The notes under the pieces: model-generated | What the model saw: only the letters and a program-made list of their open reading frames with translations | Database searches by the model: none | Told to the model about the DNA's origin: nothing | Program-made: the position numbers and the translations under genes | Shown here: piece by piece, positions 75-5,189 of the stretch | How positions within the stretch are numbered: the stretch's first letter is position 1 | How the letters are laid out: each line of letters begins with the position of its first letter | Assembly: GCA_003649445.1 (NCBI GenBank) | Contig: QMRV01000135.1 | Location: forward strand, 1 to 5,356 | Direction of reading: 5' to 3' | Length of the DNA: 5,356 nucleotides | DNA from: Thermoprotei archaeon | Lineage (GTDB): Archaea; Thermoproteota; Thermoprotei; Thermofilales; B15-G2

Positions 75-92
75 CGGCGGAGGGTTCCGGCA

Positions 93-103
93 ATTTTTAT
101 TCT
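93..103 (+). promoter_or_regulatory. TATA box of the SWIM-ATPase operon
   Basis: ATTTTTATTCT begins 34 nt before the GTG at 127. The same 11 bases occur at 2436-2446 in front of the VWA gene, 33 nt before its GTG. The spacing predicts a leader of only about 2-5 nt. Confidence 0.6.
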
Positions 104-115
104 AGTTCAAGTCCG

Positions 116-129
116 GGTGAGAGGGGGTG
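116..129 (+). promoter_or_regulatory. Purine-rich start block running into the GTG start codon
   Basis: The 14-mer GGTGAGAGGGGGTG ends in the start codon of the SWIM gene and is repeated exactly at 2458-2471, where it ends in the VWA start codon. GGGGGTG resembles the archaeal Shine-Dalgarno consensus GGAGGTG, but it overlaps the start codon instead of lying 5-10 nt upstream. It may therefore act as an initiator or early-mRNA element more than as a normal ribosome binding site. Confidence 0.5.
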
Positions 130-567
130 GGCTCGAAAATAAGCGAATACCTCTCAGAGAGCATCTACATAAGAGATAAAGCTCGAAGAGAGCTCTGGAG
201 AGTACAATGGATCTACGACCCTAAGACAAAGCTACTTTATGTCTTCGCGCCTTCCTCTAAAAAAGACAAGTACTATGAAATAATAATCCACAGGACTGGG
301 CAAGTAGAAAAGCTTTGTGAGTGCCCAGCGAGCCGTCAAGGGAAAAAATGCTGGCACATGCATGCTGCCGCAGTAATCTACAACAAGGTTAATGAGCACA
401 CTTACACAGAACCCGTCTACGGAAAAGGAGACCGAGAAAGATTCACAGGAGAAGACGCCTACAGAGCGCTAGATGAACTAGAAAAACAAACAGACAGCTA
501 CGTAGATCTCTCAAGAATATCGCCTACTCTTAAAACTCTGCTAGATTTTGTCGAGGGATTTCTATGA
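127..567 (+). CDS. SWIM zinc-finger protein
   Basis: A 146-aa protein. Its middle carries a SWIM signature CxCx8CxH: C64, C66, C75 and H77 within LCECPASRQGKKCWHMHAA. A strand-rich stretch (about 23-62) precedes it, as is usual for SWIM domains, which bind zinc and mediate DNA or protein contacts. The N-terminus (1-22) and the acidic C-terminus (about 105-146) look helical and match no family I know. The GTG start at 127 is chosen because promoter and start block match the other genes of the cluster. The stop overlaps the ATPase start (ATGA, 564-567), so the two are probably translationally coupled and made in fixed proportion. SWIM proteins occur beside MoxR and VWA genes in some bacterial operons (from memory), which suggests a substrate-recognition or adaptor role. 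The SWIM call is firm; the role is inferred. Confidence 0.85.
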   Translation: MGSKISEYLSESIYIRDKARRELWRVQWIYDPKTKLLYVFAPSSKKDKYYEIIIHRTGQVEKLCECPASRQGKKCWHMHAAAVIYNKVNEHTYTEPVYGKGDRERFTGEDAYRALDELEKQTDSYVDLSRISPTLKTLLDFVEGFL

Positions 568-890
568 CGGTGCTAGAGCTGACTAGAGAAAATGTTCTCG
601 AAGTGATAAGAGAGCTTCAAGAATTCTTCAAGGGGCTTAGAGAAGAAGTAGAAGTCTATGTTGCCTCCCAGGTGGCAGGCTTGCCTACGCTTCTTATTGG
701 AGGTCACGGCACAGGTAAAACAACTCTAGTTAAAGCGTTCTACAGCACACTAGTAGTAAAAGAGAGAGACTCCTATAGACCTCTCAAAACCTTCATGCTC
801 TTGCTGAAAGAAAGACATACACCAATGGACGTTTTCTACAGCTACCACTTGCCTTCACTGCTGAAAGGAGTCCAGAAAATAGTGCCTTAA
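564..890 (+). CDS. RavA/MoxR-like AAA+ ATPase, N-terminal part ended by an early TAA
   Basis: Residues 1-108 of a MoxR-group AAA+ ATPase. After a helical N-terminus, Walker A is GGHGTGKTT (46-54, Lys52). The stretch LLKERHTPMDVFYSYHLPSLLKG corresponds to the RavA segment after Walker A (there roughly MTRFSTPEEVFGPLSIQAL). The ORF ends at TAA 888-890, just before the expected Walker B strand. Walker B, sensor 1, arginine finger and lid all follow in the same frame after the stop, so this is half of one gene and not a complete small protein. The ATG at 564 overlaps the SWIM stop, with GAGGG 6 nt upstream as ribosome binding site. Alone, this product should bind nucleotide poorly and not hydrolyse it. 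The start and family are well supported; whether the stop is natural is unclear. Confidence 0.8.
   Translation: MTVLELTRENVLEVIRELQEFFKGLREEVEVYVASQVAGLPTLLIGGHGTGKTTLVKAFYSTLVVKERDSYRPLKTFMLLLKERHTPMDVFYSYHLPSLLKGVQKIVP
888..890 (+). other. In-frame ochre stop interrupting the ATPase
   Basis: Codon 109 of a 528-codon frame (564-2150) is TAA. Both sides are in the same frame, so a single base substitution, not an indel, is enough to explain it (from CAA, GAA, AAA, TTA, TCA, TAC or TAT). No further stop occurs for about 420 codons. Confidence 0.85.
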
Positions 891-944
891 GCTATTGGAG
901 CAGAAGCAGTCTACTTAGAAGAAATCTTCTCAAACCAGCTTGTC

Positions 945-2150
945 TTGAGCGCTCTCAAAGACTTCCTCGAAGAAAGAGTATACGACAGCTACCACTGTAA
1001 ATGGCTCTTCTTCACAGCTAGCACTAATCCCCCTAACCAGTACTACCAGAACATACTTCAGTTAAGCAATATGGCGGACTTAGACCGCTTCGACGTAGTA
1101 GTACCGTTTGAGTCTAGGCTCGGAGCAGACTTATTCGAAATAACAAGCCTGTTCGCGGAAGCCTCCGAGAGGAGAGTAGCGCCTCAGCTTTCAGCAAAAC
1201 TAGATGTGAGCAATATTATTGAAGTGAGGAAAGAAGTAATGAGTATTGAAGTAGGCTCTAAAGCGAAGTCAACACTAGCCCTGTTCGGACATGTCTACAG
1301 TGCATGCGTTTTCGAGGACGAAGACAGGCAAAGACACTTCCTTGATAAGTTCTCAGTGCTGGGAGAGGTACCTTGTATGAGATGCACTTTCAGAGGAAGC
1401 CTCTGTAGCAAATTTGCTATACAGCCCTGTAGACTCATACGCTCAACGATAGCTCTCGCCAAAGCCTTGGCGTGGCTACGTGGGGAAAACAGAGTACACT
1501 ACGAGACTGTAATTAAAGCGCTTCACTACACTCTGCCCTTGAGGCTAGTTATCGTAGACGAGAGTACTAAAAACAAAGTGGCTACAGTTAGAGAAGCTGT
1601 AAATGTAGCTATAAGAGAGTTCACAAAGTGGGTAGATGACCACAGGAGGCTTCTCAAAGAACTTAGAACCGCTGTAGAGCTGGCGAAGCGGGGCAAAGTA
1701 AACGACGCTATTAGAGCACTAAATGACTTAAGCTACCGCTACAACAACGACCCAGTAGCACTATCACTAGTACACAGCATTGCACTAAAAATAAACAGAG
1801 CTAAAGAAGAGATAGAAGCATTCATAGAAAAAACAGCAGACAAAAAAGTACTAAAATACTTCATTGAGAATAAAACAGATTTCAAAGACAAAGCCTATAG
1901 GAGACTCAAGAAAGTACTAGACATAACTGAAGCATACAGGTGGGGTGAAGAAGCAAAAAGACTGTTAAACAAACTGCTAATGAAGGGACTTATAAGTGAA
2001 AAAGAATTCGATGCACTCAGCATGATTTTGACAGGACTACAGAAAAGAGAGCATGAACAGTATCTGAGAGAAGATATTAGGATAGTAGTGAGATGGAATG
2101 AAGTAATAATAGAGGGGCCGAAGAAAACAGTAGAAGATCTACTAAAGTAG
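945..2150 (+). pseudogene. RavA/MoxR-like AAA+ ATPase, C-terminal part downstream of the TAA
   Basis: Coding character resumes directly at 891 (AIGAEAVYLEEIF...); the first TTG in frame is at 945, with no ribosome binding site near it. Walker B VYLEE (codons 116-120 of the joined frame) lies upstream of that TTG, so restart there would lose it. Then come sensor 1 TASTNPP (Asn155), LDRF with a likely arginine finger (Arg175), a lid with four cysteines (271, 274, 281, 289) and a sensor-2 arginine near 293, followed by LAKALAWLRGENRVHYETV, typical of MoxR lids. About 200 further residues are charged and helical, ending in a short strand-like tail (about 505-528). The Walker B acid pair is EE where DE is usual. 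The likely role is a hexameric MoxR-type remodelling ATPase partnered with the VWA protein. It is either a recent pseudogene, rescued by readthrough, or a sequencing error. Confidence 0.75.
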
Positions 2151-2152
2151 CC

Positions 2153-2160
2153 ATTTTTAA
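2153..2160 (+). promoter_or_regulatory. TATA box of the small-protein gene
   Basis: ATTTTTAA begins 3 nt after the ATPase stop and 34 nt before the GTG at 2187, matching the spacing of the other three promoters here. It predicts transcription start near 2182, which is downstream of the in-frame TTG (2173) and ATG (2176). Confidence 0.55.
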
Positions 2161-2175
2161 CACGGAAAACTTTTG

Positions 2176-2412
2176 ATGGAAGAGGGGTGGGCTCAAGAAT
2201 TAAGCGAAGTAACAAAAGAACTAGTAAAAGAAATATACAGTCTACTATGCAGGCTTCACGGCGTTGTAATAGCGACAGGCGTTTTCCACGATATCTATGA
2301 GTACTTCTTAGAAAGCTACAAGGAGCTACTAGAGATAAGCGACATCGAAGAAAAGTACTCTAAAGCAGTCGCTCTACTAGCGTCAATTGAAGAATATTTT
2401 CCTGTACTATAA
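2176..2412 (+). CDS. Small acidic helical protein of unknown function, with a disturbed start
   Basis: About 78 residues, acidic and predicted mostly helical (for example the stretch EYFLESYKELLEISDIEEK). No known domain, cysteine motif or membrane segment is seen. It lies between the ATPase and VWA genes, as expected for a small partner of that pair. The start is a problem. In frame, only TTG 2173 and ATG 2176 open the ORF, yet both lie upstream of the predicted transcription start. The conserved start block and GTG used by the neighbours is at 2187, one frame off. Removing one base near 2196-2201 would join that GTG to the body and give MGSRISEVTKEL, close to the MGSKISEYL of the SWIM protein. 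The body frame is convincing; the first about 8 residues are not. Confidence 0.65.
   Translation: MEEGWAQELSEVTKELVKEIYSLLCRLHGVVIATGVFHDIYEYFLESYKELLEISDIEEKYSKAVALLASIEEYFPVL
2181..2208 (+). repeat. Near-copy of the SWIM gene start (127 region)
   Basis: From the GTG at 2187 the DNA matches 127-147 with about two substitutions and one extra T (GTGGGCTC is identical; then AAGAATTAAGCGAA against GAAAATAAGCGAA). The purine block in front is also alike. Similarity stops right after the sixth or seventh codon. Confidence 0.5.
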
Positions 2413-2428
2413 TTTCTTATTTTTCTTC
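2413..2428 (+). terminator. T-rich stretch after the small-protein gene
   Basis: TTTCTTATTTTTCTTC follows the stop codon directly. Archaeal transcription commonly ends at such oligo-T runs without a hairpin. A fresh promoter follows at 2436, consistent with separate transcription units. Confidence 0.4.
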
Positions 2429-2435
2429 CACCCCC

Positions 2436-2446
2436 ATTTTTATTCT
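2436..2446 (+). promoter_or_regulatory. TATA box of the VWA gene
   Basis: ATTTTTATTCT, identical to 93-103, lies 33 nt before the GTG at 2469. The exact repeat 2458-2471 (GGTGAGAGGGGGTG) follows and ends in the start codon. Confidence 0.6.
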
Positions 2447-2468
2447 CCTTCTTTCTCGGTGAGAGGGG

Positions 2469-3890
2469 GTGAGTTCGATAAATAAGGTTCTCGAAGAAAT
2501 ACGGCTATCGCATATTCCCTTACCTCCTCCGCATACTCTTCAGCTAAATTCTAAGGTAAATGTGCCTTACTGCGACTTAGCTACAAGAGTAATTACACTT
2601 AACCCACTATCAAAGAGCATTGAGTGGGATTATAGGCACGAGATAGAGCACTTGAATAAGTGGCCTCGAAGACTGAAGGAAGAATTCAAACACTACTATA
2701 AGGCACTTAAACTTCTACCGGAGAGCGACAAGAAGTTTTTCAGAAAATACAGGTACATCATAGCTAATATTGTCTACGATGCCTTCATAGACTATGAGCT
2801 TTCTCAGAAATATCCTATGGTGAAAGAGCAGATTAAAGCATATCTGAGAGCGTCGGGAGCCTCCAATATACTAGATGAGGCTAGAAAGCTCGCTGTAGAA
2901 GGAAAGAAAGCAAAATGGCTCAACGAAGAAAAGCCATGGCTTTCCTTTATCCATGTCTTTAAGTGGATTAAGAAGCATGGAGTTCCTAGAGTTAGAAGAG
3001 ACTACAGGTCTCCTGTGAGCCCAGAGGAAGTAGCTGAGGCGGTAGTAGAGCTGGTAGATGAAGGCGAAGACGAGAAGAGAGTACTGGAGGAAGCAGAAAG
3101 ACTTCTCAAGAAGCCTCTACCCTACGATAAAATAGTAGAAGCGTTGATTAAAAGCAGATTCAATTTCGCCGTTAAAATGATTTTCGAGTGTAAAATAGCG
3201 GTTAAAGCAGTAAGGAAGACTTACGGTATTTGGCGTCTAGGCGAGCCAGTAGACCAATTATTAGTGAGAGAAACAGTGCGCTCCTACGGAATAGTAATTC
3301 CCTCACATAACACGCTCAAAGAAGTCGAAGTAGAGGCGAGAAAAGGAGTCCTCAAAAAGACTCGTGGCGGGGCGCGCGTAGCTTTAGTAGTAGATTCTTC
3401 TGGCTCAATGTCAGACTACTTGACTTACGCTAGAGACGCGGCGCTAATGTTGATCGGCTTCGCGAAGAAATACGAGTACCCGGTGCTCTTAGTGACTTTC
3501 AATTCCTCGGTGCCGTTTTCTTCGAAGGGGTGGCGGAAAGACTACTTCAAGCTAGCAAAAGAATTCGTGTACGCCTATGGGGCGGGCGGAAACACCTACA
3601 TTACACCGGCGCTCAGAGAAGTACTGAGGTATGCTGAAGAAAACACGACAGTCTACATTATAAGCGACATGGATATCCACGACATAGATCAAGCCTACAG
3701 CGAGTTCAGGAAGCTGAGCTCTTTTAAGCCGAAGCTAGTGCTGTTTCTCATTAGCCCGAGCCTACAGGAAGTAGAAGAAGTCTGCCATGTAGTAAAGCAG
3801 GCTGGAGTAAGCGATGTCAAAGGATACTGGGTTAATCCGAGGGAAGCAAAAAAGCTGACAGAATACGTTATAAAAGAAATAATTAAGTAA
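2469..3890 (+). CDS. VWA-domain protein with an N-terminal HExxH (metallopeptidase-like) region
   Basis: A 473-aa protein. Residues 1-120 contain HEIEH (57-61) and, 43 residues later, NIVYDAFIDYEL (100-111). This is reminiscent of the HExxH plus xAxDxxxN layout of the metallopeptidase-like region in DUF2201/COG3864 proteins, which also end in a VWA-like domain. Glu60 inside the motif is charged, unlike most gluzincins, so protease activity is uncertain. A charged helical middle (about 130-295) leads to a VWA domain (about 300-470) with a full metal-ion-dependent adhesion site: D309-S311-S313 (VVDSSGSM), T376 (GGNTY) and D400 (YIISDMD). It has no signal peptide or membrane segment, so it should be cytoplasmic. 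In MoxR systems the VWA partner binds the ATPase or its substrate through the metal site. The GTG at 2469 is fixed by the shared promoter and start block. The gene is convergent with the recombinase unit, overlapping its last gene by 8 nt. Confidence 0.85.
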   Translation: MSSINKVLEEIRLSHIPLPPPHTLQLNSKVNVPYCDLATRVITLNPLSKSIEWDYRHEIEHLNKWPRRLKEEFKHYYKALKLLPESDKKFFRKYRYIIANIVYDAFIDYELSQKYPMVKEQIKAYLRASGASNILDEARKLAVEGKKAKWLNEEKPWLSFIHVFKWIKKHGVPRVRRDYRSPVSPEEVAEAVVELVDEGEDEKRVLEEAERLLKKPLPYDKIVEALIKSRFNFAVKMIFECKIAVKAVRKTYGIWRLGEPVDQLLVRETVRSYGIVIPSHNTLKEVEVEARKGVLKKTRGGARVALVVDSSGSMSDYLTYARDAALMLIGFAKKYEYPVLLVTFNSSVPFSSKGWRKDYFKLAKEFVYAYGAGGNTYITPALREVLRYAEENTTVYIISDMDIHDIDQAYSEFRKLSSFKPKLVLFLISPSLQEVEEVCHVVKQAGVSDVKGYWVNPREAKKLTEYVIKEIIK

Positions 3891-4029
3891 AGTTTTGCTT
3901 AAACGCCGCTACTATTTCAGCGATTTTCAGCAGGAAGCCGTACTTAGGGTCCTTGAGGTACTTCTCGTACATTTTCGGGTTTTTCTCCCTATACTTCACT
4001 ATTTCCTCCGCCAACTCCGCTAAATTCAC
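3883..4029 (-). CDS. 48-aa protein of unknown function, coupled to the recombinase
   Basis: A short ORF in the otherwise empty gap between the VWA and recombinase genes. It starts with GTG (4027-4029) overlapping the recombinase TGA (4026-4028) as GTGA, and ends with TAA at 3883-3885. The product begins MNLAELAEEIVKYREKNPKM and ends FLLKIAEIVAAFKQNFT. It is charged and mostly helical, with a middle YEKYLKDPKYG, and has no recognisable family. Open frame, amino-acid makeup like the neighbours and the tight overlap argue for a real gene. No clear ribosome binding site is seen, so coupling to the upstream gene is assumed. Its end overlaps the VWA 3' end by 8 nt, and the minus strand beyond is T-rich (about 3866-3882), possibly ending transcription. 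A role as recombinase accessory factor is only a guess from position. Confidence 0.55.
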   Translation of the reverse strand: MNLAELAEEIVKYREKNPKMYEKYLKDPKYGFLLKIAEIVAAFKQNFT

Positions 4030-5189
4030 GTAGACTGCTGGCTATTTAAATCAGCTTTCACCAAGTCAAGTATCTTTGACAGTAGCTCAGGGTTATCTCT
4101 AATCTTCTTCTCAAGGAGTCTAAGCAACTTGATGAAGCGCTCTTCTTCTCTCAAAGCCTTTTCTCTGAGCTCCTCTGTATCCAGCTTGGTTCCGCAGCGA
4201 GGACAGTACTGTGCACTAAACTCTATTCTGAGCCCGCACTTAGGGCAGAACAGAGTTTTCCTCTCCTCTTTCTTTATTCCGTATAATTCTCTGACAGTTT
4301 CTTCGAGGTCGTCTACAGTTATTTTAGCGTATACATCTATCATTTTCCGCGTCTTCCACCCAAAGTACTTCATTAAGAGTAGTTCAGTAAACTTTCTTTC
4401 TTTGTACATTTCTGTAGCTCTCAAGTGCCTCAAGTTATGTGGGAGGAGTAGCTTCGGGTTGAGTCCTATTCTTTTACAAAGTCTGTGAATATACATGGTT
4501 AGCGCAGAAGGCCTAATAGGTTCCCCGAATGTATTGTAGAAAAGCCAGTCTTCTCTCTCCTTAGATCTGTGTTGCTGAAGCCACTCTCTCAGAACATAAG
4601 CATACCTTATTACGAAGACTGTGCGGGGGAGGCTTTTAGAGTACTTTACTCTAACACGGTAGCCTATATCCCAGTCTTCTACGTCGCCGTACTTGAGGCT
4701 GAGTGCTTCACAGCGCCTCAAGCCTCCTTCGTAGAGCATGACTATAATAGACTTGTAGGGCTGGCGGGCGCACTGAATAAGTCTGTTTACGTCCATTGAG
4801 CTGGGTAGCTCGGGAAGCTTTACTTTCTCTTTAGGGTACTTTATTTGCCTAGAAAGCCTGTAGAACACAGGGTGCTCTTTAATATTTGCTTTAGCGAAGC
4901 ACCTAATAGCCCTCACATACACTTTTCTGCTCAAAGGATTAGATATTGAAGACAAGTACTCTTCAACGTCGTCTAGCTCAAGGTCGTCTAGACTTTTACC
5001 CAGCTTCTGGACATAATTTAAGAACAGAAGGCTCCTGTTCAAGTAAGTGTAGAGAGTATCCGGTGAAAGCCCCCGGACAACACAGTGCCTATAAAGCCTA
5101 ACTAAGTCCTCGTAAAGCTCACTCGAAAGCTCTTTCTCAGCTCTCTCCATTAAAGCCCTAATAGTACTCTCAGTATGGTGCCGAATCAC
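4026..5189 (-). CDS. Tyrosine recombinase/integrase with C-terminal zinc ribbon
   Basis: A 387-aa Xer/phage-integrase family enzyme that cuts and rejoins DNA through a 3'-phosphotyrosine. The N-terminal core-binding domain spans about 15-115. The catalytic domain shows Arg158 (GGLRRCEALSLKYGDV), a lysine in KYSKS (Lys182 or Lys185), His251 and Arg254 (PHNLRHLRATEMY), Trp278 in the usual His/Trp place (FGWKT), and the nucleophile Tyr287 (IDVYAKI); all appear intact. After it, CPKC (315-318) and CPRC (329-332) form a zinc ribbon, followed by a charged helical tail (340-387). It is longer than typical XerA proteins (about 280-300 aa) because of ribbon and tail. The GTG at 5189 gives the longest frame, but the TATA box at 5203-5211 predicts transcription start near 5181, which favours ATG 5150 (residue 14). 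No att site or tRNA is visible, so a mobile-element integrase and a resident recombinase both remain possible. Confidence 0.88.
   Translation of the reverse strand: MIRHHTESTIRALMERAEKELSSELYEDLVRLYRHCVVRGLSPDTLYTYLNRSLLFLNYVQKLGKSLDDLELDDVEEYLSSISNPLSRKVYVRAIRCFAKANIKEHPVFYRLSRQIKYPKEKVKLPELPSSMDVNRLIQCARQPYKSIIVMLYEGGLRRCEALSLKYGDVEDWDIGYRVRVKYSKSLPRTVFVIRYAYVLREWLQQHRSKEREDWLFYNTFGEPIRPSALTMYIHRLCKRIGLNPKLLLPHNLRHLRATEMYKERKFTELLLMKYFGWKTRKMIDVYAKITVDDLEETVRELYGIKKEERKTLFCPKCGLRIEFSAQYCPRCGTKLDTEELREKALREEERFIKLLRLLEKKIRDNPELLSKILDLVKADLNSQQST
4194..4247 (-). other. Zinc-ribbon coding segment of the recombinase
   Basis: Encodes CPKC-x10-CPRC (Cys315, 318, 329, 332). It sits about 28 residues after the catalytic tyrosine and so is outside the core enzyme. 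It could help bind DNA or a partner protein. Confidence 0.75.

Follow-up and report, generated by a model that had tools for sequence, protein, structure and literature searches.

The window analyzed here, 5356 bases that appear to make up the whole of contig QMRV01000135.1 of a Thermoprotei archaeon (B15-G2, assembly GCA_003649445.1), encodes a SWIM-type zinc-finger protein, a MoxR/RavA-type AAA+ ATPase, a small acidic protein, and a VWA protein, with a tyrosine recombinase gene convergent to the last of these. Our preferred interpretation, which we hold to be about evenly balanced between right and wrong, is that a MoxR-VWA chaperone module is carried here on an integrative mobile element and serves the surface or transfer apparatus of that element. 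Judged from sequence, the neighborhood points to a mobile element and not to a housekeeping operon. An initial annotation of this DNA had proposed the four plus-strand genes as a candidate multi-protein system; these genes proved real, with motifs that are found again in relatives, but that annotation overlooked an in-frame stop codon in the ATPase gene and the adjoining recombinase. The genes and motifs of the window are as follows.

127..567, plus strand: SWIM-type zinc-finger protein, 146 aa, GTG start, with CxCx(8)CxH at bases 316-357 (motif alignment)
564..2150, plus strand: MoxR/RavA-type AAA+ ATPase frame of 528 codons, ATGA-coupled to the SWIM gene, Walker A at 699-722, interrupted
888..890, plus strand: in-frame TAA inside the ATPase frame (comparison with P0007, an intact close relative)
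1305..1406, plus strand: four cysteines of the ATPase (C248, C271, C274, and C281), just before the sensor-2 helix (alignment)
2176..2412, plus strand: small acidic protein of 78-79 aa, in the slot between the ATPase and VWA genes
2469..3890, plus strand: VWA protein, 473 aa, with an N-terminal HExxH domain and a C-terminal VWA domain with a metal-ion-dependent adhesion site (MIDAS)
2637-2651, plus strand: HEIEH of the VWA protein, with D104 and D108 in the helix that follows
3393-3410, plus strand: MIDAS motif DSSGSM of the VWA protein
Residues 245-254 and 283-292 of the VWA protein: two predicted strands
4026..5189, minus strand: tyrosine recombinase, 387 aa, carrying a zinc ribbon at its C-terminus; gene convergent to that of the VWA protein (Pfam Phage_integrase)

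Recombinase linkage and genomic context

The window recombinase scores 76.2 bits against Pfam Phage_integrase (cut-off 27.1), and its NCBIfam XerA/XerC/XerD match lies below the cut-offs. A recombinase convergent with the VWA gene was found in the window and likewise, at three loci, in the metagenome-assembled genome (MAG) G001, Thermoprotei MAG B12_G16, whose scaffold names suggest a Guaymas origin. These loci are on contigs C19, C62, and C73 (L001, L002, and L007 among the copies); C68 and C73, which have 123 bp in common at their overlap, represent one locus, leaving three copies in G001. Compared with the window recombinase, the complete copy on C19 is 54-55% identical, the cut copy on C62 ~54%, and the stub on C73 40%. 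Of 398 Thermoproteota genomes sampled, 3 contain the ATPase at E<1e-100 and 25 at E<1e-10. The VWA profile finds 11 of the 398 at E 1e-3, and the six weakest of these (G054, G059, G076, G174, G220, and G338; E 1e-5 to 1e-3) were kept out of the VWA-family count. Among plasmids, the search returned one weak Paracoccus match. In G392, the VWA gene is present only as decayed fragments (L010/L023) with one TGA and five TAA codons, a relic of a related element. The patchy spread, several copies in a single genome, decayed copies, and the integrase together form the pattern expected of a mobile element. A further window-type integrase, 62% identical over 243 residues and decayed by an inner TGA and TAG, was observed on G001 contig C64 (L083).

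The client of the module was placed in the surface or transfer apparatus of the element because of the gene neighborhood in relatives. The 38-kb contig C19 encodes proteins matching T2SSE (68.2 bits), T2SSF (36.0), HerA/DUF87 (26.4), KaiC (145.3), and a TFIIB-type zinc ribbon (34.4), along with genes that appear pilin-like by eye. Contig C90 of G002 has matches to DUF87 (49.3 bits) and TraG (37.1 bits), and G285 and C19 share six neighbors in addition to MoxR and VWA, one of them the TFIIB-type protein. Several observations weigh against this interpretation. All three integrase-linked loci outside the window come from one genome, two genomes of the close clade account for the known linked transfer genes, and no transfer gene lies within the 5.4-kb window. 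The integrase matches of G002 and G285 sit on other contigs, the T2SSE match on C90 is below the cut-off (18.5 vs 24.9), and the 8-kb contig of G285 has MoxR-VWA with neither SWIM nor integrase. As for integration itself, the integrase is present and recurrent, but att ends were not mapped and a tRNA was not found. In the predicted structures, predicted local distance difference test (pLDDT) values are 35-53 (block means) for the strands that precede the VWA core and 57-76 for the cysteine stretch of the P0007 model (residues 261-290).

Proposed mechanism

In MoxR-VWA pairs as described, the VWA protein captures a client peptide and MoxR drives its remodeling (PMC7159879), and in the NorQD model, a VWA finger enters the ATPase pore and the MIDAS grips the client (PMC9976466). 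By the mechanism that we infer for the module, the VWA protein would dock on the hexameric ATPase ring, possibly via the two predicted strands before the VWA core in a NorQ/NorD-like manner, its MIDAS would grip the client, and ATP hydrolysis by the MoxR ring would remodel it. The SWIM protein would be a zinc-dependent adaptor with a role in client choice or nucleic-acid binding, the HExxH domain would process the client or provide a metal-binding scaffold, and the likeliest clients would be subunits of the element's own pilus or transfer apparatus. MoxR-VWA pairs are general remodeling machines whose clients are mostly unknown, and the tie to an integrase, plus the pilus and transfer genes in relatives, shortens the search for a client to a small gene list.

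The VWA protein

The VWA protein of the window exceeds the Pfam VWA_2 cut-off (27.7 vs 27), and its MIDAS residues D309/S311/S313/D400 are kept in all eight full-length rows of the alignment. With its VWA fold, its MIDAS, and a gene adjoining MoxR in both the window and its relatives, it belongs with the VWA partners of MoxR ATPases. A structure search with the predicted model gave ArnB, NorD, and Rea1 among the matches, those listed covering only residues 217-473 and hence not the N-terminal part. Sequence searches of the PDB with the ATPase and VWA profiles gave no match for either at the limits used.

The HExxH motif and two later aspartates (D104 and D108) are likewise invariant in the eight full-length rows, and all are helical in the predicted model. 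The possible peptidase suggested in the initial annotation depends on these residues; a profile test against DUF2201_N was negative, and HExxH is absent from some more distant VWA partners, namely those of L058 and L026, YehP, and the SMV1 VWA protein (that of L025 is cut at the N-terminus). The N-terminal domain may be either a processing enzyme or a metal-binding scaffold. The profile comparison did not show this domain to be DUF2201_N, with hhalign scores (15.8 local, 16.2 global) that compare with up to 20.6 in 100 column shuffles (local); the PF13203 profile gave no match at E<=1 to the window VWA protein, and none where the VWA genes lie in G001 and G285. Proteins with the DUF2201_N-DUF2201 architecture, found beside MoxR-like ATPases, also combine HExxH, N-x3-D-x3-[DN], and VWA, and their VWA halves match that of the window at 83% probability, but their N-terminal parts have no detectable profile similarity to it. 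One such protein accompanies a second AAA ATPase in L056 (14218-16687), a few kb from the MoxR-VWA-SWIM-motif genes of that locus.

The ATPase, its broken frame, and its cysteine lid

The ATPase family was taken from P0007, which differs from the window protein at 14 of 528 positions. The model of P0007 has the RavA/MoxR fold and its sequence exceeds the Pfam bpMoxR cut-off (30.2 vs 27), and AAA+ motifs are present in the window itself, so that the RavA-like ATPase of the initial annotation holds as a member of the MoxR/RavA AAA+ family. Four of the 14 differences fall in the 20 residues around the stop codon (window 864-923). All four require transversions, compared to two of the ten remaining differences, and three of them hit columns invariant in 15 of 15 rows, one in the Walker B region. 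The clustering is not significant alone (permutation p = 0.105); it is the invariant columns and the transversion pattern that suggest sequencing error or recent decay as the source of the broken frame in the window copy.

The cysteines C248, C271, C274, and C281 are present in 15 of 15 rows (alignment A5 plus the window), making them a candidate Zn or Fe-S site. The CxxC..C lid motif occurs in 9 of the 27 loci from the ATPase search, all of them nearer relatives, and in 0 of 18 generic MoxR matches, and it is absent from the SMV1 MoxR and from YehL; by this distribution, the motif marks this branch of MoxR. The cysteine, SWIM, and HExxH sites could also be those of a machine that inserts a cofactor or a metal, as NorQ-NorD and CoxD-CoxE do, an alternative that we consider improbable given the patchy distribution and given that no metalloenzyme target gene was recognized in the loci read (by eye and with partial Pfam scans). 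A more specific version of the preferred chaperone interpretation joins these features in a transfer-filament machine dedicated to a family of archaeal integrative elements, in which a MoxR with a four-cysteine metal or Fe-S lid, a zincin-VWA protein, and a SWIM adaptor would assemble or process the element's own filament, and the gene between those for ATPase and VWA would be an exchangeable cargo. We offer this as a doubtful but possible elaboration; if true, archaea would have a MoxR machine for DNA transfer that is gated by metal or by redox state.

L002 (9220-9822), L003 (2271-2873), and L022 (3393-3893) encode, immediately upstream of the ATPase gene and in divergent orientation to it, a conserved 166-200-aa protein with HYDLPVP or VYDIPYP near its start, for which Pfam gave only a sub-threshold MerR match.

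A variable slot between the ATPase and VWA genes

The gene between ATPase and VWA differs among loci. In L001, it encodes a PLD family protein (PF13091, 33.4 bits), and in L002 an unnamed 226-aa protein with a 92% identical counterpart in L007, to which Pfam gave only a sub-threshold DUF7078 match and which by eye only resembles a PD-(D/E)xK nuclease. The window has the small acidic protein in this place, with no Pfam, PHROG, or NCBIfam match and no homologue among 1202 open-reading frames (ORFs). The SWIM gene occupies the place in G002, and in G285 and G174 the ATPase and VWA genes overlap.

This variation is the strongest argument, though not a decisive one, for an archaeal MoxR-VWA conflict system, in which MoxR-VWA would set a threshold and the exchangeable slot gene would be the effector of an element-borne defense or inter-element weapon. 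MoxR-vWA ternary conflict systems with variable effectors have been described (Kaur et al. 2020, PMC7159879), and the module has in common with them the MoxR and vWA core and, through P0007, the bpMoxR match. It differs in that no ternary partner was recognized: Pfam found no VMAP, iSTAND, FtsH, or beta-propeller protein in the window or in those neighbors that were scanned, and SWIM and HExxH do not occur in the text of that paper. In L001 and L002, the slot gene is encoded on the opposite strand, and G285 and G174 lack one altogether. For the six proteins scanned, the small and slot proteins not among them, PADLOC returned nothing beyond weak partial matches (best 2.9e-4 for SWIM and 8.1e-4 for P0007). 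With an integrase and transfer- or pilus-type genes as neighbors, the defense role considered in the initial annotation thus gains no direct support, and we regard a conflict system as unlikely.

Co-occurrence of the SWIM protein with MoxR-VWA

The initial annotation had called the first gene product a SWIM zinc-finger protein. Its CxCx(n)CxH motif fits this, but the window protein falls below the Pfam SWIM cut-off (10.9 vs 19.6), which the homologue in L002 exceeds (20.9). The window CxCx(8)CxH aligns with the motifs of L002, L003, L004, SMV1, and the N-terminal part of P0018, and SWIM is a candidate assignment made at the level of the motif. Pfam SWIM gave no match for the proteins of L004 and L056.

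Ten MoxR-VWA loci were read: the window; C19, C62, and C68/C73 of G001; C90 of G002; C104 of G285; C32 of G174; C27 of G059; C8 of G021; and SMV1. G059 and G174 entered through their MoxR matches in the ATPase search, the MoxR of G059 being a fragment only. A SWIM-type protein lies within ~5 kb of MoxR-VWA in six of the ten (window, C19, C68/C73, C90, C32, and SMV1), so that the recurrence of these parts together, a question raised in the initial annotation, is borne out, with C19 and C68 exceeding the Pfam cut-off, SMV1 assigned by record annotation, and the window, C90, and C32 by motif. In 8.0 kb of G285, 15.0 kb of G059, and 13.5 kb of G021, the motif was looked for without success, and C62 starts too near MoxR-VWA for SWIM presence to be judged. 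Outside this list, G318 has MoxR and integrase with no VWA or SWIM recognized in 15 kb. Since Pfam SWIM gives 0-3 matches per genome (eight genomes), a SWIM protein would be expected to fall close to any one gene by chance only infrequently; this is an estimate, and the loci of G001 are not independent.

The alternative that the SWIM protein stands outside the MoxR machine, as a recombination factor near it by chance on mobile elements (of an SWS1-like kind), draws on L002 and L003, where the SWIM gene is divergent from MoxR and sits beside a KaiC/RecA-fold ATPase gene (PF06745, 145.3 bits in L002; by resemblance in L003). We judge this very improbable in view of the ATGA coupling of SWIM to ATPase, which was noted in the initial annotation and is seen in the window, the overlapping order of the MoxR, VWA, and SWIM-motif genes in L056, and the yehLMPQ cluster of E. 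coli. P0018, a single 535-aa ORF combining SWIM and MoxR, also argues against it, and may itself be a frameshift artefact, as its tail departs from the family alignment.

Upstream regions and gene starts

Comparison of upstream regions and direct repeats (D3, D9, and D20) identified three similar stretches.

92..126, plus strand: AT-rich TATA-like box (AATTTTTATT) and G-rich leader 5′ of the SWIM gene
2153-2186, plus strand: similar TATA-like/G-rich stretch 5′ of the small gene
2436-2468, plus strand: similar TATA-like/G-rich stretch 5′ of the VWA gene

In the shared leader of the small gene, a GTG at 2187 is out of frame with the small ORF (window 2176-2200), which hints at an indel or an atypical start. 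Both this GTG and the TAA at 888-890 would fit local sequencing error, with recent decay as the less favored possibility. In L001, L002, L003, and L007, several genes begin with ATGGGCGGGG (MGG...), and this G-rich run right after the start codon is perhaps a translation-start signature.

Comparison with known systems

The initial annotation had considered this archaeal set not to be characterized. The set of SWIM, MoxR, and VWA is in fact already known, from E. coli yehLMPQ and from the bicaudavirus SMV1, and MoxR/vWA genes linked to pili are in print; what stands is that this integrase-linked arrangement is undescribed in the literature searched. The yehL-yehM-yehP-yehQ genes resemble the module in combining MoxR, VWA, and SWIM in one cluster, but include YehM and have no integrase beside them in the 20 kb read, and YehP has no HExxH and YehL no CxxC..C.

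In SMV1, the MoxR (CDF81351) is beside the VWA (CDF81350), the genes for the VWA and the SWIM-annotated protein (CDF81344) are ~4.5 kb apart, and an integrase lies at ~6 kb from MoxR, all on one mobile genome in a looser order. The three SMV1/SMV1a records are also the only phage-collection matches to the ATPase, and the MoxR-VWA pair p618/p892 of ATV, of the same kind, has been reviewed as virion chaperones (PMC4124505). A provirus module, with MoxR and VWA as virion or tail-assembly chaperones as in bicaudaviruses, might be expected from these likenesses. We nevertheless find it quite unlikely: the SMV1 ATPase aligns with 35% of the query at 28.6% identity (E 3e-6), the two VWA proteins align weakly (pairwise E 0.21) and short of sequence homology, and the SMV1 MoxR has no cysteine and its VWA no HExxH. 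A search of 50,697 phage records at E 0.01 returned nothing for the window VWA protein, and three scans of viral contigs gave no relative.

The preferred interpretation, a chaperone module on an integrative element, has a close archaeal likeness in the MoxR, vWA, KaiC-like, and TFIIB-like genes near type IV pilus loci with T2SSE/TadC described by Makarova et al. (2016, PMC4858521), the same types of genes as on the 38-kb contig of G001. This likeness is one of gene types, and in that paper 'SWIM' occurs only in a reference title and 'integrase' nowhere. Halovirus AAA-VWA neighbors (PMC7911831) and archaeal MoxR-vWA genes with a predicted secretion system (PMC5898192) are also in print. No archaeal integrase-linked MoxR-VWA-SWIM element and no cysteine-bearing MoxR lid were found in the literature, where subscription coverage was partial and cysteines were not a search term. 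As far as searched, the integrase linkage, the CxxC..C lid of the ATPase, and the variable slot between ATPase and VWA are new, and the module connects the bacterial yehLMPQ cluster, the bicaudavirus tail chaperones, and the pilus-linked MoxR genes of archaea.

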